Shown: in pieces, positions 43,300 to 55,321 of the stretch
Layout: the number at the start of each line of letters is the position of its first letter
Position numbering within the stretch: position 1 is the stretch's first letter
Assembly: GCA_026418415.1 (NCBI GenBank)
Contig: JAOABK010000009.1
Coordinates: 1 to 64,000, forward strand
From: Pseudomonadota bacterium
GTDB taxonomy: Bacteria; CALINM01
Length of the DNA stretch: 64,000 nt
Direction of reading: 5' to 3'
Notes under the pieces: generated by a model
Databases searched by the model: none
What the model was told of the DNA's origin: nothing
What the model saw: only the letters and a program-made list of their open reading frames with translations
Made by a program: the position numbers and the translations under genes

Positions 43300-46200
43300 A
43301 TGAAAAGAGCTAAAATATTTTTTTACATTCTCTTAGTGCTTTGTGGAATGGTTGGCATACCACCACAAGGATTTGGATTGACCCCTATGCCAAACCCAGG
43401 AGGTACTCCTGATTATTTTAATGTACCAAACTGGGCTAATAGTCCACCTTTAAGAAAATTTGTTGATACACTTCCAGGTCTTAACTCTGTTAATCAAAAT
43501 AATCTCGGACAGTATATTCCAGTAGCCATACCAGACACTACAACTTATCCAGGTTCAGATTATTATGAAATTGAGCTTGGTGAATACTCAAAGCAAATGC
43601 ATTCAGATTTACCACCCACAAGGCTTCGTGGTTATAGACAAATAAATACTAATGATCCTACAGTAAGTCAGTTTCAATATTTAGGACCTTTAATTATTTC
43701 ACAGAAAAACCGCCCAGTAAGAATTAAATTTATCAATAGTTTACCTACCGGGAATGGAGGAAACTTATTTGTACCTGTTGACACAACCATAATGGGTTCT
43801 GGGCAATTTTTTATTGACTATGATCCAGAAACAAAACAAATGATTAGTCCTATTTCAGGCTTTTTTTCTCAGAATAGAGCCACCCTTCACCTACATGGTG
43901 GTCATTCTCCTTGGATCAGTGATGGAACGCCACATCAATGGATAACTCCAGCAGGCGAACCAACATCATATCCTAAAGGTGTTAGTGTTGCCTATGTACC
44001 TGATATGTGGTTTGACTCTGCGGGCAATACAATAACTGCATGTGCAGGGCAAACTACCTGTAATGTACCCGGTGCTACAAATAATCCAGGACCTGGCGCT
44101 CAGACCTTCTATTGGAGCAATCAACAAAGTAGTAGGCTTATGTTTTATCACGACCATTCATGGGGAATCACCCGTTTAAATGTTTATGTTGGTGAGGCAG
44201 CGGGATATATAATTAGAGACGATGTTGAACAGGAATTAATAAATTTAGGTCTTATACCAACAGACGAAATACCACTTATAATTCAAGATAAAACTTATGT
44301 AGATGAAAACACTATAGTAAATACTGACCCCACATGGAACTGGGGTACAAGTCCAGGTAATGCAGTAACTGGTGACTTATGGTGGCCCCACGTATATATG
44401 CCTGCCCAAAACCCTTATAATCCTGACATGAGTGGAATCAACGCTTTTGGAAGATGGCATTATGGCCCATGGTTCTGGCCACCAACACCTGTTTGTGGCT
44501 CATCAAATCAGGCGGTGAAACCTCTTTGTATAGAAAATGGAACTGTACCAAATGAGTATTATTTAAATGATCCAGCTTGTTTTCCTATTGAAACACCACA
44601 ATGTATTCATCCACCTGAAAGACCAGGCACACCTAATCCATCATGGGGTGCAGAAGCATTTTTAGATACGCCTATTGTAAATGGTACTGCCTATCCAAAA
44701 CTTGACGTTGAACCCAAAGCATACCGATTCCGTATTTTAAATGCTGCTCACGACCGTTTTCTCAATCTACAACTATATCAAGCAACATCAATTGTAGATA
44801 AAATTACCATAACAAATGGAGGGACAGGATATACTTCTCAACCCACTGTTCAGATTATTGGTGGTGGTGGAACTGGTGCTACTGCTAATGCTGTTGTAGA
44901 CCTTAATCCACTAAGTCCAACCTTTGGACAGGTTATAGCAATAGACATTGCAACCGTTGGAAGTGGATATACTTCTCCACCAATAGTTAATATCATTGGT
45001 GGCGGTGGAACAGGTGCTACTGCAACTGCAACAATTTACACACAAATGACCGAAGTCGGCATGGTGCCAGCAACTTTAACTTCTGGATTTCCTCCACTAT
45101 GGCCAAAAGATGGCAGAGAAGGTGGTGTTCCTGATCCATTCACTGCTGGTCCTCCTTTTATTCAGATCGGGACAGAAGGTGGCTTTTTACCACAACCAGT
45201 AGTTTTGCAAAACCAGCCCATTCAGTGGAATACAGATCCAACAATGTTTAATGTTGGTAATGTTTTACCAGTTGCGGAAGGTGGTGGAACATTAATACTT
45301 GGTCCAGCTGAAAGAGCAGACGTTATAATCGATTTTTCCCAGTATGCAGGAAAAACACTAATTTTATATAACGATGCACCTACCGCTTTTCCAGCCCTTG
45401 ACCCCCATTATGACTATTATACAAATAATCCCGATAGAACTGACATAGGTGGAGCTCCTTCAACACCACCTGGATTTGGTCCAAATATACGTACCATAAT
45501 GCAAATAAATGTAGCCAATAATCCACCTGCACCAGCCTATAATGTTTCTGCATTAAAGGCAAAGTTTCTTTCTACAAATTCACAACAGGGTGTTTTTGAG
45601 CGTTCACAGGATCCAATAGTTGTAGGTCAGGCAGATTATAATACTACATATAATAAATCATTCCCCACAAGATGGCCTACATGGGGATACTCAAGAATCT
45701 CCGATACAACTTTGAGTTTCATGCAACCTGATGGAACTATTGTAAATAACTTTCCAATGAAACCAAAGGCAATTCATGATGAGATGGGAGCTACTTTTGA
45801 CGATTATGGTAGGATGAGTGCTAAATTAGGGCTCGAAATGCCCTTTGCAAATGCTGCTATTGCAAATTTCATACTCCAAAATTATGTTGATCCACCAACT
45901 GAAATTATAAAGCAAGGAGAATACCAGATCTGGAAAATAACCCATAATGGAGTTGATACACATCCAATACATTTTCATTTATTCGAAGTGCAAATTGTTA
46001 ATAGGGTTGGATGGGATGGTTTTATTAGAAAACCAGATCCTAATGAATTAGGCTGGAAAGATACGATTAGGGTTAGTCCCCTTGAAGATACAATAATCGC
46101 CTTGAGACCAATTCCACCAGTTGTACCCTTTAAAGTGCCTGATAGTGTTCGTCCTTTAAATCCAGAACAACCTCTTGGTTCTATGATGGGATTTTCTCAA

Positions 46201-48882
46201 CAAGATCCCTTTACGGGACAGCTAATGAACCCACCTGTTGAGAACGTTATGTATAATTTTGGCTGGGAATATGTCTGGCACTGTCACATATTAAGCCATG
46301 AAGAAAACGATATGATGAGGTCTATAGTATTTCAAGTTCCACCTGATGCTCCTTCAAACTTAGTAGCAAGCGGTACAAACCCTACTAATCTTGGATGGAT
46401 TGATAACTCGGTTAGTGAAACTGGTTTCACTTTACAAAGAGATACAGCTCCTGATTTCGCAAACCCTGTAGAATTTTCGATAGGTCCAAGCAATCCAAAT
46501 ACAAACTATGGTGGAACAATTACCTACAGTGATACATCCACAACAACAGGAACATATTACTACCGAGTTAGATCTTTCAGTCCTAATGGAACATCTGCAT
46601 GGTCAAATATAGCTACAAATAGCAATATCCCTATTGCTGTAATAAATCCAAAATCACTTGCCTTCGGAAATCAACCTTACAATACAACAAGCGCACCTTT
46701 GAGTATTACTCTTTCAAACATAGGCAATGTTAACCTTGCGATAACAAGTATTGGGATCAGCGGTGCTAACTTGACTGATTTTGCTCAAACTAATAATTGT
46801 GGAACTTTACTTACAGCGGGATCAAACTGCACAATAAATATAACATTTAATCCCTCTGCTCTCGGAGCAAGATTGGCAAATCTTTTAATTATTAGTAACG
46901 ATCCTATAAATCCGACTATTTCTGCTACATTAACAGGAACTGGGATTGCTCCAATTGCTACCGCAAATCCTCTATCCATTACTTTTACAAATCAACTTTT
47001 ATTTACTAATAGTAACGCTAAAACTATAACACTTTCTAATACTGGACAGCTTCCTCTCAATATTAATAACATACTTGTAACAGGAACAAATTCCACTGAC
47101 TTTTCACAAACGAATACTTGTGGTGCATCTCTATCTATTGGAGCAAGTTGTACTATTAGTGTAATATTTACTCCTACAGTCGTTGGTATTAGAAACGCCA
47201 GCATTTCTATCTCAACAAATGACCCTATCAATCCTACAGTATCTGTTTCTCTTTCTGGAACTGGTTTTGTAATTCCTATCGCAAGTATCACTCCAACATC
47301 TCTTAATTTTGGAAATCAATTGGTCAATTCTACAAGTGCAAGCCAAACAATAACACTGTCAAATACTGGACTTGATGTTTTAAATATTACAAGTATAGGA
47401 ATAGCTGGAACTAATGCAAGCAACTTTTCCCAGACAAACAATTGTGGAACAACACTTGCTTCGGGTTCAAATTGTGTAATAAACATAACATTTACACCCT
47501 CAACTACAGGAGTTAGAATAGCCAATTTATCTATTACAAGTAATGATCCCGCAAATCCAACTTTGACAGCATCTCTCTCTGGAACAGGTGTAACACCAGT
47601 AGCTAGTATTTCTAAAGCTTCTTTAAGCTTTTCAAATCAATTAACAAATACTGCAAGTGCACCACAAACCATCACACTTTCTAATATTGGTACAGCACCT
47701 TTAACAATCAATGGCATAAACATTACTGGATTAAATCCCACTGACTTTACTCAAACTAACAACTGTACAAGTACTTTATCTATTGGTGGAAATTGTACAA
47801 TTAATGTCACTTTCATCCCAACTGCAAATGGAGTCAGATCAGCAAATCTAAATGTCCAAAGCAACGATTTAACAAATCCCACACTGTCTGCTCAACTAAG
47901 TGGTACAGGAACATCAGTTTCACTAAGCACATCATCTCTCCTTTTTGGAACTCAACTTGTTGGCACAACAAGTGCTTTGCAAACAGTAACCCTTTTAAAT
48001 AATGCTAATTCTCCTTTAACTATTAACAGCATAACTCTTGGTGGAACTAATTCAACTGATTTTCTTATGACAACAAACTGCCCAGCAACGTTAGGTGCTA
48101 AGGCAAGCTGTAGTATTGGTATACGTTTTAGACCATCTGCAATGGGTGCAAGAACAGCAATATTAACAATAAACGACTCAGATCCAACAAGTCCACAGAG
48201 TGTCAGCCTGAATGGTACTGGTATTGCTCCCGTAAATAGCGTTTCTCCAGCTTCTTTAACTTTTAGCTCACCACTTAATATAACCAGTACAGCACAAAAT
48301 GTAACAATTACAAATACTGGTACAGCAAGCATGACTATATCTCGTATCTTCATTAATGGAACTAATGCAAATCAGTTCGTAAGAACAGCAACAACTTGTG
48401 GAACTACACTACCCGCTGGATCAAGTTGTACTGTAAGTATAGCATTTAGACCAACTTTAGTTAATCCTTTGACTAAAGCAGCAAATTTAAACATTCAGGT
48501 AAGTGCACCGGCAACATCAGTTGTCGTACCACTACAAGGTAATATTATAGTACCAACTTATACCGCTAATCCTAACTCCCTAAATTTTGGAAACCAAACT
48601 ATAAATACGACAAGTATTCCACAAACTATAACTATTACTAATACTGGCACTTCTGCACCTTTGAGGATAACAGGTATTAGCCGTACAGGTACAAATGCCA
48701 ATCAATTTATAAGTACAACAACTTGTGGTCCTTTTCCTGCAGTTCTTAATCCCGGTGCATCATGTGATGTAACCGTTTCTTTCAGACCTACATCCGCTGG
48801 CACCAAAAACGCTAATATTAACATAAACGTTTCTGCTCCAGCCACATCACAAACCATACCTTTAACAGGAATTGGCCAATAA
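43300..48882 (+). CDS. secreted multicopper oxidase fused to Fn3-like and seven choice-of-anchor D (ASPM/HYDIN-type) domains
   Basis: Signal peptide; copper motifs LHLHGGH, FYHDHSWG, THPIHFHLF, WHCHILSHEENDMM; seven tandem Ig-like repeats at the C-terminus. Confidence 0.95.
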   Translation: MKRAKIFFYILLVLCGMVGIPPQGFGLTPMPNPGGTPDYFNVPNWANSPPLRKFVDTLPGLNSVNQNNLGQYIPVAIPDTTTYPGSDYYEIELGEYSKQMHSDLPPTRLRGYRQINTNDPTVSQFQYLGPLIISQKNRPVRIKFINSLPTGNGGNLFVPVDTTIMGSGQFFIDYDPETKQMISPISGFFSQNRATLHLHGGHSPWISDGTPHQWITPAGEPTSYPKGVSVAYVPDMWFDSAGNTITACAGQTTCNVPGATNNPGPGAQTFYWSNQQSSRLMFYHDHSWGITRLNVYVGEAAGYIIRDDVEQELINLGLIPTDEIPLIIQDKTYVDENTIVNTDPTWNWGTSPGNAVTGDLWWPHVYMPAQNPYNPDMSGINAFGRWHYGPWFWPPTPVCGSSNQAVKPLCIENGTVPNEYYLNDPACFPIETPQCIHPPERPGTPNPSWGAEAFLDTPIVNGTAYPKLDVEPKAYRFRILNAAHDRFLNLQLYQATSIVDKITITNGGTGYTSQPTVQIIGGGGTGATANAVVDLNPLSPTFGQVIAIDIATVGSGYTSPPIVNIIGGGGTGATATATIYTQMTEVGMVPATLTSGFPPLWPKDGREGGVPDPFTAGPPFIQIGTEGGFLPQPVVLQNQPIQWNTDPTMFNVGNVLPVAEGGGTLILGPAERADVIIDFSQYAGKTLILYNDAPTAFPALDPHYDYYTNNPDRTDIGGAPSTPPGFGPNIRTIMQINVANNPPAPAYNVSALKAKFLSTNSQQGVFERSQDPIVVGQADYNTTYNKSFPTRWPTWGYSRISDTTLSFMQPDGTIVNNFPMKPKAIHDEMGATFDDYGRMSAKLGLEMPFANAAIANFILQNYVDPPTEIIKQGEYQIWKITHNGVDTHPIHFHLFEVQIVNRVGWDGFIRKPDPNELGWKDTIRVSPLEDTIIALRPIPPVVPFKVPDSVRPLNPEQPLGSMMGFSQQDPFTGQLMNPPVENVMYNFGWEYVWHCHILSHEENDMMRSIVFQVPPDAPSNLVASGTNPTNLGWIDNSVSETGFTLQRDTAPDFANPVEFSIGPSNPNTNYGGTITYSDTSTTTGTYYYRVRSFSPNGTSAWSNIATNSNIPIAVINPKSLAFGNQPYNTTSAPLSITLSNIGNVNLAITSIGISGANLTDFAQTNNCGTLLTAGSNCTINITFNPSALGARLANLLIISNDPINPTISATLTGTGIAPIATANPLSITFTNQLLFTNSNAKTITLSNTGQLPLNINNILVTGTNSTDFSQTNTCGASLSIGASCTISVIFTPTVVGIRNASISISTNDPINPTVSVSLSGTGFVIPIASITPTSLNFGNQLVNSTSASQTITLSNTGLDVLNITSIGIAGTNASNFSQTNNCGTTLASGSNCVINITFTPSTTGVRIANLSITSNDPANPTLTASLSGTGVTPVASISKASLSFSNQLTNTASAPQTITLSNIGTAPLTINGINITGLNPTDFTQTNNCTSTLSIGGNCTINVTFIPTANGVRSANLNVQSNDLTNPTLSAQLSGTGTSVSLSTSSLLFGTQLVGTTSALQTVTLLNNANSPLTINSITLGGTNSTDFLMTTNCPATLGAKASCSIGIRFRPSAMGARTAILTINDSDPTSPQSVSLNGTGIAPVNSVSPASLTFSSPLNITSTAQNVTITNTGTASMTISRIFINGTNANQFVRTATTCGTTLPAGSSCTVSIAFRPTLVNPLTKAANLNIQVSAPATSVVVPLQGNIIVPTYTANPNSLNFGNQTINTTSIPQTITITNTGTSAPLRITGISRTGTNANQFISTTTCGPFPAVLNPGASCDVTVSFRPTSAGTKNANININVSAPATSQTIPLTGIGQ
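46630..48879 (+). repeat. seven tandem ~107-aa Ig-like repeats within the multicopper oxidase CDS
   Basis: Repeated pattern FGNQ..NTTS..QTITLSNTG..PL.I..I...GTN..DF.QTN.CG..L..G..CTI.I.F.P...G.R.A.L.I.SNDP..P......LSGTG. Confidence 0.93.
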
Positions 48883-48892
48883 CTAAAACTTC

Positions 48893-48928
48893 AACAAGGG
48901 GGATTTTATCCCCCTTGTTCTTTTTTAA
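48893..48928. terminator. strong intrinsic terminator aacaaggggga-tttta-tcccccttgtt-cttttttaatttt-like
   Basis: 11-bp perfect stem followed by a T tract, between the convergent multicopper oxidase and secretin genes. Confidence 0.92.
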
Positions 48929-49008: not shown

Positions 49009-50427
49009 CTACCCTTTCATATCGACTATTCTTGGGGTGATGAGAATAAGAACTTCAGAATCTTCTGTTATCTTCTCAGTCTTACTGAAGATAAAATTCA
49101 GGATAGGAATATAGCCTAAAATGGGTACCCTTGTAACCTTCTCTATCTCTCGTTTTCTAATAAGACCACCTATAACAATAGTCTCTTGGTTTTTGACAAC
49201 CACTGTCGTATTCACAGACCTTTTGTTTATCATTGGAAGACCATCTTTACCAACCTCAATGAAATCGCTTACTTCCGCTGGTTTAATCTTAACAAGGATA
49301 TTATCTTCATCGGAAATCAAAGGTAGAATGTTCAAATTAACCCCTGCTTTGATCGTCTCTAATTTAACATAGGGATATGTCACTGGACCAGTTACAAGGG
49401 AGATATACTGTTCTAATCCAATATTAATTGATGCTTCTTCTCCATCCATCGTAGTTACTCTTGGTGTTGCCTTTATTGATGCAAGCCCAGTTTCTACAAG
49501 AGCTTTTATTTGTGCGGTAATCCTCCTTGTAATTGCGGGCTGACTTATATATGTTAGCGTTAATTCAAGGGCATCAGATGCTGCAGAAAACTTTCTTGAT
49601 GTAGCAGACCAATCTATTCCTAAACTTTTTCTCCCATCATTAGATAGCTCTACCACTAATGCCTCAAGGGTGATTTGTTTTGGCATCTTATCTATCTTTT
49701 TAATATCCTCTAAAATCCTCTGTACTAACTCTGGAGATGCAGTTACTGTTAGCATATTTCTCTCTTCATTGACCTGTATGTATGATGAAAAGGAGTTAGA
49801 TATTAGCTTTACTATTTCCTTTGCCTTTAGAAACTTTGGCTTATATTCTACAGTGGTACTAAGATAATTAAAAAGCGGGCTTCTTGGATCAGCTGAACCA
49901 ACTATATAATAATCATCAATCTTTTTGAATGTGTATCCACCGGGAGATAAAATCAGCCTTAAAACCTTTTCCAGGGGCTGGTTCTCAAACTTAACACTTA
50001 ATACACCTTGAACAGTATCATCAGTTATTATATTAATACCTGTTTCTGATGAAATGGTTCTTATAATCTCTTTAATATCTGTATCATAAAAGACATTGCT
50101 TAAAAGTTTTTCCTCTTTTTCTCTAATTTCGACATCTCTTTCCTTTAAGGCAACTTTATCATCATGTTTTATGCTGTTTCTATGGGCAACCTCTTTCTTT
50201 GTTAACTCTTCAATTCTTTTTAGATAATCATCCGCTAAATCAATTATTTGACTATCTGGATGCTTACTTTTAAATTCTCTAAACTTCTGTTCCGCTTTAT
50301 CATACTCCTGTCTCTCATAAAACTTTTTACCTTCTCTAAAAAGAGTATAATCATGGGCACAGGAATAAAAAAATAACAAAATCAAAATAAAAATGATTCG
50401 TCCTTGCCCCATTAAACGCCACCTCAT
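49009..50427 (-). CDS. GspD/PilQ-type secretin lipoprotein with N-terminal TPR and STN/N domains
   Basis: Lipobox FFYSCAH; NVFYDTDIKEIIRTISSETGINIITDDTVQG; VVVKNQETIVIGGLIRKREIEKVTRVPILGYIPILNFIFSKT...LLILITPRIV. Confidence 0.93.
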   Translation of the reverse strand: MRWRLMGQGRIIFILILLFFYSCAHDYTLFREGKKFYERQEYDKAEQKFREFKSKHPDSQIIDLADDYLKRIEELTKKEVAHRNSIKHDDKVALKERDVEIREKEEKLLSNVFYDTDIKEIIRTISSETGINIITDDTVQGVLSVKFENQPLEKVLRLILSPGGYTFKKIDDYYIVGSADPRSPLFNYLSTTVEYKPKFLKAKEIVKLISNSFSSYIQVNEERNMLTVTASPELVQRILEDIKKIDKMPKQITLEALVVELSNDGRKSLGIDWSATSRKFSAASDALELTLTYISQPAITRRITAQIKALVETGLASIKATPRVTTMDGEEASINIGLEQYISLVTGPVTYPYVKLETIKAGVNLNILPLISDEDNILVKIKPAEVSDFIEVGKDGLPMINKRSVNTTVVVKNQETIVIGGLIRKREIEKVTRVPILGYIPILNFIFSKTEKITEDSEVLILITPRIVDMKG

Positions 50428-50963
50428 TTATAAAAGATTCTGAAACCAGTCAGATAAACATTTCCATTAATATCAATAATACGTATTTCAACTTCTTCTT
50501 CATACTCCTTTTTACCAAAGGGTGGACTATTTTTAAGTGCCTTTACATAAATCTTTCTTTTATAATCACTATAATCAGAGGGGGTTTCATAATAATTATT
50601 GAATTTTGCTCCATCCATCCACCTTTTATCATTTAGTAATGGTGGTGGTGAATTATAGGGTAAAACAATATAATAGGTTAATAAATATTTTGAATCCTTG
50701 TAAATGTTACCACCTGGCCTTTTCGTAAAAAAATATACCGTAAATGGTGAGTTTGAAATTATGTGTAGAAGGGCAAACTCCTGACTATATAGAACCTTAT
50801 GTCCTATTTCATGTAAATATAGAACTGGTGGATACAAATTTATTTGAATTTGCTGGTTAACCTTTCCAAAAACTGGCACTTTTTTTTGGTTAAGGACTTT
50901 TTCATTCCCTATAGAATCCCTAACCATCAAAAGAAAAATTAAAAGAAATAGTATTTTTCTCAT
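50424..50963 (-). CDS. hypothetical exported protein
   Basis: Signal peptide; ORF overlaps the secretin start (ATGA). Confidence 0.7.
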   Translation of the reverse strand: MRKILFLLIFLLMVRDSIGNEKVLNQKKVPVFGKVNQQIQINLYPPVLYLHEIGHKVLYSQEFALLHIISNSPFTVYFFTKRPGGNIYKDSKYLLTYYIVLPYNSPPPLLNDKRWMDGAKFNNYYETPSDYSDYKRKIYVKALKNSPPFGKKEYEEEVEIRIIDINGNVYLTGFRIFYK

Positions 50964-50964
50964 T

Positions 50965-52602
50965 TTAATTCACATTAAACTCTATTTTTTTTGTAAGTTT
51001 TTCTTTACCACCATAATCAATCTCTGCTACTGCAAAGTATTTCCCCTTTTTTAACTTCTTATCTATTTTCCCGTTCATTTTCATAGTTAAACCGGGTAGT
51101 AATCTTTGTCCCTTTAAGTTTAAAAGGGCGAGTTTATTCTCATCACTATCCATAATCAGCACTTTCCCTTCCGGAACAATATGAATTTTAGAGTTATTTT
51201 TTATATGCAAATCTAACTCCCTATCCTCACTCCCCTTTATTTCAAAGCCAGTTATTTCTGCCTGATTTTCAAATTTATCGGGAATAATAACTGAAACATC
51301 AATGAATTTTTTATCTTCACTACCATCATTTTCAACCACTATCTGTCCGTACCTACCACCGTTATGAAAATTGGAAGGCACTTTTACATCAAATTTTAAG
51401 CTTTTAGTCTGCCTTGGCTCTATCGTCAAATTTTTATCTTCTAACTTTACCAGTTCTTTCAAAGTATATGTTGTAGTGCCTATTTCTTTTATAACCCTTT
51501 CCCCATCCTCTGTATATTCTACGTCTTTCAAATCTAATCTTAATTGAATTTGCCTATCTGACTCATTAATGATATTAACAAAAGCAGATCTCGACCCGCC
51601 CTTTGGAACTTTTATTTCTATATTTTGCTGTTTAATTGTATATAAAAACTTCTCTTCATTTTTTAAGGAGCTAACTAAATCAGAACTAAAAAATATTTTA
51701 TCCTTTGCAGTAATAGTTCTCTTGCCAAATTTCATTGACACAATCGCAGTATATTCGCCCTCTTTAAGGGGTTTTGATATTCTACCAAAGAAATTTACTT
51801 TGGCGCCTGGAAAAATCCTCTGTCCTTCTTCATCACTAACTAAGCCTTTCTTTTTTGTTTGTTTTTGTACATTATTATCCTGCTTTTCCCTTTTTTGCTT
51901 CTCTTCTAAATAATGAGTTGTTAGTGCTATCGTCTCTATAATTTTTCCAGAACTATCGTGTAAAACTACCTTACCTGTTGCTCTATAATCAATATTTGAA
52001 TTATTAATTAGAGAAGTCTCGATAATAGGAGTTCCATCGGGAAGGAGTTTTAATCTTATATCCTGTGTTTTACCTGATTCTATTAGATTTTTACCCTTTA
52101 CCTTGACCTTTAATATTACAGCATAACGAAGTTTAACCGTTATTCCCTTTTCCTTCTTTTCATATGCCGGTTCAATCATTATTGTTGCAACTCTGACCCC
52201 TGATGCATCCCTTGGGACATTTATCTCCCCCTTTAACTCCACTGTCTCACCAGCATTGACAATAAAATCATTTCTTTGAAGTTTTATCCATTTAGCGCAG
52301 GAAAAAGGGCTTTTTCCAGGTTCCGTAAAATCCACATTTCCATCCTCTTTCTGGTCAATATCAAATAAAGATACGCTTACTGGAGTATCTTCATTAGAAG
52401 TAGAATAAACATCTATTGAAAACTCTCCCTTTTTTCCTGGTTGAAGCTCTAAATCGATATTTAGAGGTTGAACTCCAACTGTTCCAACTCCAAAAGATTT
52501 TACAGGTATAATCAAAGTTAAGATTACAATAATTAAGACTAATTTTCTATGCAAGGTTTCACTCCTTAAGTGAAATAAAGAGCGGGCAATAAGCCCGCCC
52601 AA
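50965..52602 (-). CDS. exported tandem Ig-fold protein, DUF916/PapD-chaperone-like
   Basis: VGVQPLNIDLELQPGKKGEFSIDVYSTSNEDTPVSVSLFDID; two homologous halves, each ending in an LLPG/IFPG...KGKYxAxxxxxxG module. Confidence 0.75.
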   Translation of the reverse strand: MGGLIARSLFHLRSETLHRKLVLIIVILTLIIPVKSFGVGTVGVQPLNIDLELQPGKKGEFSIDVYSTSNEDTPVSVSLFDIDQKEDGNVDFTEPGKSPFSCAKWIKLQRNDFIVNAGETVELKGEINVPRDASGVRVATIMIEPAYEKKEKGITVKLRYAVILKVKVKGKNLIESGKTQDIRLKLLPDGTPIIETSLINNSNIDYRATGKVVLHDSSGKIIETIALTTHYLEEKQKREKQDNNVQKQTKKKGLVSDEEGQRIFPGAKVNFFGRISKPLKEGEYTAIVSMKFGKRTITAKDKIFFSSDLVSSLKNEEKFLYTIKQQNIEIKVPKGGSRSAFVNIINESDRQIQLRLDLKDVEYTEDGERVIKEIGTTTYTLKELVKLEDKNLTIEPRQTKSLKFDVKVPSNFHNGGRYGQIVVENDGSEDKKFIDVSVIIPDKFENQAEITGFEIKGSEDRELDLHIKNNSKIHIVPEGKVLIMDSDENKLALLNLKGQRLLPGLTMKMNGKIDKKLKKGKYFAVAEIDYGGKEKLTKKIEFNVN

Positions 52603-52606
52603 GTTT

Positions 52607-53137
52607 TTATGGTGCCCATACCGTCAAAGTAATTGTTGCGGAGTAATGTCCAGCAATCTGATCATTAACATTGGGACCGAGTTTGGCATAACCAATTACC
52701 TCATACTTGCATTTTGTTCCTGCACTTTGACCAGGAGCCACTACCAAATCGCCAACTGGGTTATATGTTGACCAACTCCTATTGAAATACCCCAGAACCA
52801 GAGAGGGGGTTACTCTTTTAGCCCTGTAAGCAGTTTTAATTGAGTAGTTTCCATTTTTTAAGTCAGTTCCAGAAAAGGTAAGATTCACGTCTGCATTTGT
52901 CTCTACCTCAAATACAGCGTTATCTACTGGACCTAACTCTTCATTTGGTTGCCCTGAGAACACACCAAAATCCATTGGTTCTGTAACAACCCTTACTTTA
53001 GCGTATTTCCAGACCTTACCATTAACTGGTACTAACTCAGAGATTGGTGGAGCTCCCTCACCCGCAATTACCTCTGACACCATAAGCATAAACATTAGAA
53101 ATATCATGGTGCAAGAGAGCTTTATTATGGGTTTCAT
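52607..53137 (-). CDS. small exported beta-rich protein, paralogue of the 53153-53602 product
   Basis: Signal peptide; EGAPPISELVPV...VFSGQPNEE...AGHYSATITLTV. Confidence 0.75.
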   Translation of the reverse strand: MKPIIKLSCTMIFLMFMLMVSEVIAGEGAPPISELVPVNGKVWKYAKVRVVTEPMDFGVFSGQPNEELGPVDNAVFEVETNADVNLTFSGTDLKNGNYSIKTAYRAKRVTPSLVLGYFNRSWSTYNPVGDLVVAPGQSAGTKCKYEVIGYAKLGPNVNDQIAGHYSATITLTVWAP

Positions 53138-53152
53138 AAAAAGCTCCTTTTA

Positions 53153-53602
53153 TTAAATTTTTGTAACTGTCAATGTTATCTCTCCCTGATAGTCCCCTGC
53201 AAGTGGTGAGGTAGCACCAGTAACACCAATAATTGTAAATGTATCATTCCATTCACTACCAGCAGCATTAAAATAATTTACCTCTTTATTGCCTACAGCA
53301 TTTAGATAAAGTTGTATAGTACTATTATTAGGTCCAGTAAGTTCCTTTGAAACTTTTACATTGTAGTTAACATCGCAATTGGTCTTTTTATTTGTTGTAA
53401 ATGTTGTTGATTTAGTTTCATTAGGAGCACCTGAAAAGCTTAATAGACCAGGTTGCTGTGTTACATTTAATGAGACATAGCAGGCAACTTCTGCATAAAC
53501 ATCAACCTTTTCTGTAAGTGGTGGTGCTCCTTCCGCTGAAAAGGCAATTGATGAAAAGGCAAAAATAGCTAAAATTGCTGTTAATAATGCTACTTTTTTC
53601 AT
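53153..53602 (-). CDS. small exported beta-rich protein (fimbrial subunit/spore coat U-like pattern)
   Basis: Signal peptide; EGAPPLTEKVDV...SFSGAPNET...AGDYQGEITLTV; RBS aggagggag. Confidence 0.78.
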   Translation of the reverse strand: MKKVALLTAILAIFAFSSIAFSAEGAPPLTEKVDVYAEVACYVSLNVTQQPGLLSFSGAPNETKSTTFTTNKKTNCDVNYNVKVSKELTGPNNSTIQLYLNAVGNKEVNYFNAAGSEWNDTFTIIGVTGATSPLAGDYQGEITLTVTKI

Positions 53603-53717
53603 ACTCTCCCTCCTAAAATTTTAGTCTTTTTCTGACCTCGCAGAGTAGTCAGTTTTCTTTTAAATTCATCACCTCCTTTCCTTATGGGATCCTCTGCGAA
53701 AAAATCCCAAAATTTTA

Positions 53718-54659
53718 TCAAAAAAGATCCCCTCCCTCCTCCATATCTGGTTCATAGGTAACAATTATTTCGCCTTTATACTCACCCGCTTTATCTTCAG
53801 AAGTTGCTTTTAGTTTGAAATAAAGTTGTGTAGATACACGCTCTTTCTTTCCAATGTTTTTTTCCTTCCCTGTTAGAACTATTACAGGCTTATCAAGGCT
53901 ATAGTAATTCCCATTCCCCATATTTACATAGATCCTATTTGGTGGTATTGTTCCCTTCTCTCCTACTAAAGGTGTTATATGAATCTTTACTACAAAATCA
54001 CTTTTACCAATAACAGTTATATTTACAGGGTTATCAGCAGGAAAATCACCAGGACCAGTAATTAAAAATCTGAGCTTATCTGGGTTTACTGTTATGTAAC
54101 TTTTCTTTGGTTTTGGTTTATGGCCGATAAAGGGTCTTTCAAATTCAACAGGCATTGGCTGTATAATCACTTTTAAAAACATTGTGGGTCCACCATCGGG
54201 AGATACGATCTGCCCCTCATAGATACCAGGCTTTTCAAAGCCTGTTGAATTAAAACCAATCATTATGTTGCCTATCTCTTCTGTCTTTGCACCTGTAAAG
54301 CTTCCCTTGCCCACCATCCTTGGTATATCTAAACTCTCAAAATTTCTCGTATAGGGGGTCTGTATCAGCAGTTGAGATGGCGATATTGTCTCTCCTTTCT
54401 CGTTCCTCAAGGGTGTAGCATGGTAGTGAACAGACCAATCTTTTAAATCGGATTTTACAAGAACCCTTACGGGCATTTCTGCCATAATCGGTCCTGTCTG
54501 CCCTTCTGTAACCCTTATTGTTACTTGAAAGTGGGATAATATTATCTGAGGAGTAATAGCGGTACTGGTTAAAACCGGTAAAATTATTAGAAAAATTAAG
54601 ACAAATATTAATTTTTTCATACCTGATTTAAATATAAACTTTATGTAAGGGTTAGACAA
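53718..54659 (-). CDS. exported protein with two tandem beta-sandwich domains
   Basis: Signal peptide; internal repeat WSVHYHATPLRNEKGETISPSQLLIQ vs FVVKIHITPLVGEKGTIPPNRIYVN. Confidence 0.72.
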   Translation of the reverse strand: MSNPYIKFIFKSGMKKLIFVLIFLIILPVLTSTAITPQIILSHFQVTIRVTEGQTGPIMAEMPVRVLVKSDLKDWSVHYHATPLRNEKGETISPSQLLIQTPYTRNFESLDIPRMVGKGSFTGAKTEEIGNIMIGFNSTGFEKPGIYEGQIVSPDGGPTMFLKVIIQPMPVEFERPFIGHKPKPKKSYITVNPDKLRFLITGPGDFPADNPVNITVIGKSDFVVKIHITPLVGEKGTIPPNRIYVNMGNGNYYSLDKPVIVLTGKEKNIGKKERVSTQLYFKLKATSEDKAGEYKGEIIVTYEPDMEEGGDLF

Positions 54660-54736
54660 TTAGACTAAAGTTTGGTTTTAAACAATTTTTTGATTTAATA
54701 AGAAAGTTGTAATGTTAATAAATTTTAATTTTAAAA

Positions 54737-55321
54737 CTAAAGATTTAAACAATTGTCTTTACAAAGGGATACTAACTGTGCACGGTTTGTAATATTAAGC
54801 TTTTTAAAAACTCTATTTAGATGAGATTTTACAGTTTGTTCAGATATTGATAGGTTAACAGCAATCTGTTTATTACTCAAACCTTCACAAACAAATTTTA
54901 CAATATTTTTTTCCTGCTCGGTCAGACCATTATTGCTTATATTTTTATTCAAATTAAGGTTATTTATAAAATTCTTAAGAAGCTTGTTATCAATCCAAAT
55001 CTGTCCTTCATTTATAACCTGAAGTGCCTTGACAAAAAGTTTTTTGTCCGTATCGGTGGAAATAATACCAGCAAGTTTATAGACACCAAGAGCAGTTATT
55101 AACTGTTCCTTTTTTAAAGAAGTATCAACTAAAACCAACTTTGCTTTCGGATATTTATTCTGTATCTCATTGTTCAGGCTATTGTAATCGAGAAGTATAA
55201 TGTCTGGGGTTGTTTTTTTTTCAACATTGAAATAGGGTGTTATTTCACTACCACAATTTCTTAAATAATCGTAAAAAAGCTCATTTATCAAACTACTTGT
55301 AAAATTAAGTAGAACATTCAT
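54737..55321 (-). CDS. LuxR/NarL-type regulator with degenerate receiver-like N-terminus
   Basis: LTEQEKNIVKFVCEGLSNKQIAVNLSISEQTVKSHLNRVFKKLNITNRAQL HTH; N-terminus lacks the acidic DD pocket. Confidence 0.9.
   Translation of the reverse strand: MNVLLNFTSSLINELFYDYLRNCGSEITPYFNVEKKTTPDIILLDYNSLNNEIQNKYPKAKLVLVDTSLKKEQLITALGVYKLAGIISTDTDKKLFVKALQVINEGQIWIDNKLLKNFINNLNLNKNISNNGLTEQEKNIVKFVCEGLSNKQIAVNLSISEQTVKSHLNRVFKKLNITNRAQLVSLCKDNCLNL

Follow-up and report, generated by a model that had tools for sequence, protein, structure and literature searches.

A tandem DUF916 chaperone encoded with a dedicated secretin: a candidate chaperone-secretin pathway for surface fibres

How does a secretin come to be encoded among small exported beta-rich proteins and a putative chaperone? 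Donor-strand chaperones hand pilus subunits to ushers, and secretins serve the ATP-driven machines of type II secretion (T2SS), type III secretion (T3SS) and type IV pili (T4P). The locus that raises the question lies at positions 49009–55321 of the 64,000-nucleotide stretch analysed here, the window (contig JAOABK010000009.1, C161 below, of the Pseudomonadota assembly GCA_026418415.1, genome G000). Its seven co-directional minus-strand open reading frames (ORFs), named here by their lower coordinates, were all confirmed at the stops and strand given in an original prediction made from the letters alone, and a Pfam scan of the products identified a LuxR/GerE regulator (54737), a WxLIP_PGBD (that is, DUF916) protein (50965) and a secretin (49009); the other four (53718, 53153, 52607 and 50424) matched no Pfam family above its cut-off. 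We propose that these genes specify a chaperone-secretin pathway building surface fibres or adhesive filaments, with a probability of roughly 0.6, on account of a PapD-like chaperone, a dedicated secretin clade, the linkage of the two and the occurrence of short forms of the chaperone beside barrels. We see about an even chance that it stands for a distinct class of outer-membrane fibre assembly, in which a dedicated secretin receives Ig-like subunits from PapD/DUF916 donor-strand chaperones and neither an ATPase nor an usher takes part. Such a class would span at least five phyla, Thermotoga included, in which the secretin is now annotated as a competence/type IV pilus gene.

Unrelated genomes have the same genes in the same order, and the cluster is therefore not a product of chance. 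A metagenome-assembled 'bacterium isolate HOT.CON.50' (L001) holds the whole block, from the C-terminus of 53718 to the secretin, in identical order, and the set of one or more pilin-like genes, a double DUF916 gene and a secretin was found in at least five phylum-level groups, the window's own included; a neighbourhood restricted to this one genome, which would have counted against the original prediction, is thus not what we see. DUF916 profile matches occurred in 44 of 386 genomes, spread across the domain. With neighbourhoods annotated with local profiles and linkage counted within 3 kb, long, two-unit DUF916 loci had a secretin in 8/11 cases and a barrel in 1/11, whereas loci with only the short form had a secretin in 1/34 and an usher-like barrel in 20/34 (Fisher p = 6e-6 for the linkage of long versus short forms to a secretin). 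The single short-form exception (L050) is a long form truncated by the contig end, of which the second half is left; among the three long loci with no secretin within 3 kb, one has a barrel, L055 has neither, and L088 (genome G036) stops at the edge of its contig, a matching secretin lying at the beginning of a different one (L121). Secretin matches were present in all three genomes of one phylum (that of G048), in one of six of another (G340) and in 27 of 103 of a Thermotogota-like one (G325), where DUF916 adjoined the secretin in every genome examined; in G212's phylum, long-form DUF916 profile matches occurred in 10 of 20 genomes. Sixteen further neighbourhoods, 12 chosen by secretin and four by DUF916, all hold both genes, nearly always with pilin-like genes upstream. 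One Thermotogota-like locus (L185, genome G478) is probably the Thermotoga maritima MSB8 copy, its secretin then probably TM1117; no pilus ATPase stands beside it. TM1117 and TM0088 are listed as pilQ (PMC5637354).

Short DUF916 proteins align with three canonical PapD-type chaperones at an hhalign probability of 98.8 (E 1.2e-16, 204 columns) and the second unit of the long form at 96.7 (E 4.5e-10), as against less than 1 for the control comparisons of 53718 and the pilin families with the same chaperones; in a joint alignment, each half of 50965 matches PapD along its length. In unit 1, the segment KLRYAVIL aligns with the PapD G1 donor strand ALRFGVPIF, the Arg being kept, and unit 2 is without that strand. 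Sequence searches of the PDB with DUF916 gave an Enterococcus WxLIP (EfmWxLIP1) at 3e-8 and a weak match to EcpB, a fimbrial chaperone (0.001), and Foldseek searches with the model of 50965 returned WxLIP, EcpB, Caf1M and DraB among other Ig arrays. Residues 145-179 of that model form a low-confidence disordered hairpin, as reported for free WxLIP; by the AlphaFold2 prediction in that paper, the WxLIP hairpin turns into an inserted strand and so completes the sandwich of WxL (PMC10599100). The alignments support 50965 as two PapD-like units in tandem that would act by strand donation, in agreement with its earlier assignment as a DUF916/PapD-type chaperone, and they suggest a single chaperone superfamily that takes in both Gram-positive WxLIP and Gram-negative PapD. 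Short DUF916 chaperones elsewhere adjoin usher-like barrels of 770-1195 aa that Pfam does not call ushers (L018, L019, L057, L058, L060, L061, L065, L067, L068, L070-L072, L074, L075, L077-L079 and L082-L085). These barrels align weakly with a true usher (probability 88 in the plug region and 89 in the C-terminal region) and showed no homology to the secretin in our comparison; such loci are apparently a broad, unrecognised branch of the chaperone-usher systems.

The secretin, for its part, scores under every curated NCBIfam secretin subfamily cut-off. A tree of 31 secretins places the 13 linked to DUF916 on one side of a 99/99 branch, recovered in 100% of bootstrap trees, and the other side holds the four other secretins of the window's genome, of T4P/T2SS type, and matches with no DUF916 neighbour; by this comparison, the DUF916-linked secretins are a dedicated family apart from the T4P/T2SS type. 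Five secretins with good profile scores (from G269, G017, G104, G244 and G313) have no DUF916 neighbour and fell outside the clade, several of them beside pseudopilin-like genes, and L002, a Bacillota T4P-type secretin without DUF916, was discarded. The profile also matched the pIV-type secretin PDB 7ofh (E 5e-35). The operons of the four other secretins of the genome also contain PilM/N/O-like genes or pseudopilins, and two of the four have an adjacent ATPase. As originally predicted, neither an ATPase nor an usher is encoded at the locus: no T2SSE ATPase (PF00437) match was found on contig C161, and the only PF00577 match of the genome is on contig C80. Nor could an ATPase or platform gene be recognised next to the operon in those loci of relatives that were examined. 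The earlier description of the secretin as a lipoprotein is a guess, and lipidation does not look general in the family. In the G048 relatives and Thermotogota-like genomes, a second outer-membrane component is encoded 3' of the secretin (L017:3682-5484, L050:2109-3911, L185:9468-10580 and equivalents), having in G048 secretin-type N domains and a barrel-like C-terminus; the window operon has no such gene.

The middle products have ordinary-looking signal peptides, and no prepilin motif was seen on reading their sequences. The profile of 52607 and its L001 homologue finds 53153 at 6e-7 and a G048 subunit at 4e-4, L001 has a syntenic 144-aa counterpart of 53153, and in most Thermotogota-like copies a nine-member pilin profile picks out at least one gene upstream of that for the chaperone. 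The C-terminal half of 53718, a protein similar to a 312-aa protein of G048 (blastp E 3e-11), is related to the pilins (family profile against pilin profile, probability 90, E 1.5e-6); a role as tip adhesin is a guess, and galectin matches of its family profile in the PDB (E 0.001) were taken as generic beta-sandwich matches. These relationships support 53153, 52607 and 53718 as pilin-like beta proteins behaving as subunits, and thus the earlier notion of 53153 and 52607 as a subunit pair. Foldseek matches of the 52607 model (pLDDT 65) to CfaB, the PapG pilin domain, PapK, Csu and Pyrobaculum bundling pili, at E 0.004 or worse, are suggestive only. Compared with the SCPU family, the pilins aligned in a C-terminal strand only, and matches to the CPR Pam pilus family (NCBIfam NF058581, Pam pilin C-terminal domain) were far under the cut-off (E 0.029 for 52607 and 0.0075 for a 172-aa protein of G340). 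The accessory 50424 matched none of the other subunit profiles compared, nor the small Ig-like proteins beside other copies or the 53718 family.

The gene content, the linkage and the relationships of chaperone and secretin are read from sequence; from them we infer a pathway of strand donation, docking at the secretin ring, polymerisation and ATP-independent passage through the secretin. The subunits would cross the inner membrane by Sec, and the tandem chaperone would lend a G1-type strand that completes the open beta-sandwich of each subunit and dock that subunit at the N0/N1 ring which the secretin presents to the periplasm; while leaving through the channel, the subunits would polymerise by strand exchange, driven by folding rather than ATP, with 53718 starting or capping the fibre and the LuxR/CsgD-like regulator switching the gene set. 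The idea first put forward, of a fimbria-like or coat-like structure whose export channel would be a stand-alone secretin and no usher, has comparative support for each of its parts, and assembly through the secretin is how we would join them. If true, chaperone and channel are interchangeable modules, and whether folding alone can drive export through a secretin becomes a testable matter. It also proposes a function for the conserved secretin operon of the heat-loving Thermotogota, a group in which a 2016 survey, chaperone-usher systems not included, found none of its searched protein secretion systems (PMC4793230).

The hairpin directly after the second subunit gene, 52607, may bear on the same pathway. 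With a criterion of a stem of at least 8 bp and at least six GC pairs, a GC-rich hairpin was present at the junction of last pilin and chaperone in 14 of 16 loci from several phyla (the window, L017, L185, L188, L189, L193-L200 and others) versus 5 of 29 other co-directional gaps of the same loci (p = 6e-6, an optimistic value as related loci are not independent). The hairpin sequences look unrelated, so it is their position that seems to be conserved. Interrupting the cluster where it does, the hairpin would lower the expression of chaperone and secretin relative to the subunits, which fits a control of stoichiometry giving more subunit than assembly machinery.

Several observations weigh against this reading. 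Both structure models are of low confidence (pLDDT 62 for 50965 and 65 for 52607), probably because they were based on the window proteins and L001 homologues; ciliary Ig arrays rank above WxLIP in the search with the chaperone model, and the subunit matches are weak (none with E < 0.001) and mixed with unrelated beta folds. Against SCPU, the pilins reach a probability of 66 over 29 columns, and sequence comparison does not establish them as homologues of the classical pilins; the subunits are beta-rich, a missing strand and an N-terminal donor extension being presumed. Secretins normally operate with inner-membrane partners, and the genome encodes PilB-type and several T2SSE ATPases elsewhere. 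Finally, the operon was not found in the window's two nearest relatives searched, G001 and G002, and its distribution is accordingly patchy. This absence, and the patchiness in one other phylum (1/6), are what speaks for a fortuitous neighbourhood of unrelated envelope genes, which we hold to be very improbable: at least five phylum-level groups have this set, its order mostly kept, which already contradicts it, and the secretin clade matches the linkage to DUF916.

More serious, if still unlikely in our judgement, is an arrangement like that of the WxL clusters, in which the DUF916 protein remains attached to its beta-sandwich partners on the cell surface and the secretin exports the complex, with no polymer being formed. 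DUF916 matches WxLIP best both by sequence and by structure, PMC10599100 presents WxLIP as the partner of WxL at the surface, and the subunits are few and small; however, the absence of a WxL domain from every product and of a C-terminal membrane helix from 50965, the occurrence of subunits often in two or three copies, the alignment of the two-unit chaperone with PapD along its length and the partnership of the DUF916 family with usher-like barrels elsewhere all argue against it. A shade less probable again, we think, is that the secretin works for a type II or type IV pilus machine whose genes lie elsewhere, with its neighbours as exported substrates of that machine. Here the retained N0 and N1 domains, the several T2SSE ATPases and four T4P/T2SS-type operons of the genome and the pilQ annotation of the Thermotoga homologue, probably TM1117 (PMC5637354), have to be set against the facts that those operons have secretins of their own, that the DUF916-linked secretins form a separate clade and that the fetched loci examined yielded no adjacent ATPase or platform gene.

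The remaining features concern gene starts and transcription (Table 1). Probable start codons lie inside the listed ORFs: at 54620 (ATG) for 53718, as read from the sequence, versus a listed start of 54659; at 52554 (TTG, with AAGGAG upstream) for 50965, versus 52602; and at 50412 (ATG, with GAGGTGG upstream) for the secretin, versus 50427. The regulator 54737 has CsgD as its top NCBIfam match (3.7e-20; 72.5 bits, under the cut-off of 250). A 'luxR-led' operon, as stated originally, is not upheld: the gap between luxR and 53718 has a promoter-like site, but the number of such matches does not exceed chance (27 against an expected 27.4). LuxR/NarL-type regulators adjoin the window and G048 copies; the Thermotogota-like ones (L185:10684-11748, L053, L186, L191, L193 and L198) are adjoined instead by BTAD/SARP-type regulators. 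Similarly, the strong terminator thought to close the operon (48893-48928) has its T-run on the plus strand and hence ends the convergent multicopper oxidase gene, being at best weakly bidirectional. That gene (43300-48882, plus strand) encodes a multicopper-oxidase-like protein of 1860 aa with a long C-terminal array of Ig-like repeats.

Table 1. Features of the locus in window coordinates
Feature	Coordinates	Strand	Remarks
LuxR/NarL-type regulator, 194 aa	54737..55321	-	Pfam GerE 3.7e-19; receiver-like N-terminus without N-terminal acidic pair
Two-domain Ig-like exported protein	53718..54620	-	C-terminal domain related to pilin-like subunits; candidate tip/initiating subunit
Pilin-like subunit 1, 149 aa	53153..53602	-	Signal peptide, then EGAPPLTEKVDVYAEV
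Pilin-like subunit 2, 176 aa	52607..53137	-	51% identity to L001 171-aa protein
Terminator-like GC-rich hairpin, candidate attenuator	52580..52600	-	Stem of 8 bp with 7 GC; tail rich in T
Tandem DUF916 chaperone, a single polypeptide with two PapD-like units	50965..52554	-	Pfam WxLIP_PGBD 2.8e-13, above cut-off
Predicted donor (G1-like) strand of unit 1, KLRYAVIL	52099..52134	-	Residues about 157-168 of the 545-aa ORF
Exported beta-rich protein, 179 aa, putative accessory	50424..50963	-	31% identity to L001 counterpart
Minimal secretin, putative lipoprotein	49009..50412	-	TPR-like N-terminus, then N0, N1 and secretin domain; Pfam PF00263 8.4e-39
Intrinsic terminator of convergent multicopper oxidase gene	48893..48919	+	T-run on plus strand; strong fold; not clearly the operon's

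Has the system been named already? In the open-access literature searched, we found no description of DUF916 together with a secretin, though one may exist elsewhere, and nothing relevant on usher-less or Pam-type pili; DUF916 appears there mostly in Gram-positive surface proteins. Among known systems, the filamentous phage pIV-type minimal secretin (PDB 7ofh) is similarly short, but it is more distant than GspD/PilQ and no phage genes were seen at the locus. With T4P and T2SS (PilQ/GspD) the locus shares a homologous secretin domain with N0 and N1, yet neither an ATPase nor a platform protein is encoded there, nor are type IV pilins or pseudopilins, and its secretin falls in the separate clade, under every curated cut-off. 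The Gram-positive WxL clusters (WxL and WxLIP, DUF916-DUF3324) offer the same DUF916 family, small beta-sandwich partners encoded alongside and a predicted insertion of a WxLIP strand into WxL (PMC10599100); unlike them, the locus has an outer-membrane secretin, no WxL domain in any product (Pfam) and no C-terminal membrane helix in 50965. The genome has, separately, a canonical archaic chaperone-usher operon with SCPU-type pilins (L157, G000:C80:3093-9257), which holds its only PF00577 match, and the window operon is thus no compensation for a missing one; L157 is partly seen in the sister genome G001. From the chaperone-usher systems (PapD/FimC with PapC/FimD; the archaic Csu type), the locus differs in having no usher (PF00577) and a secretin at the channel position, a chaperone that is a tandem of two units, and subunits not recognisable as SCPU or fimbrial families. 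Membership therefore fails for the chaperone-usher systems on the usher, for T2SS and T4P on ATPase and pilins, and for the WxL clusters on the WxL partner. In its compact operon, its PapD-like two-domain chaperone family, its several Ig-like exported subunits with a two-domain one among them, and its lack of an ATPase at the locus, however, it works most like a chaperone-usher system.

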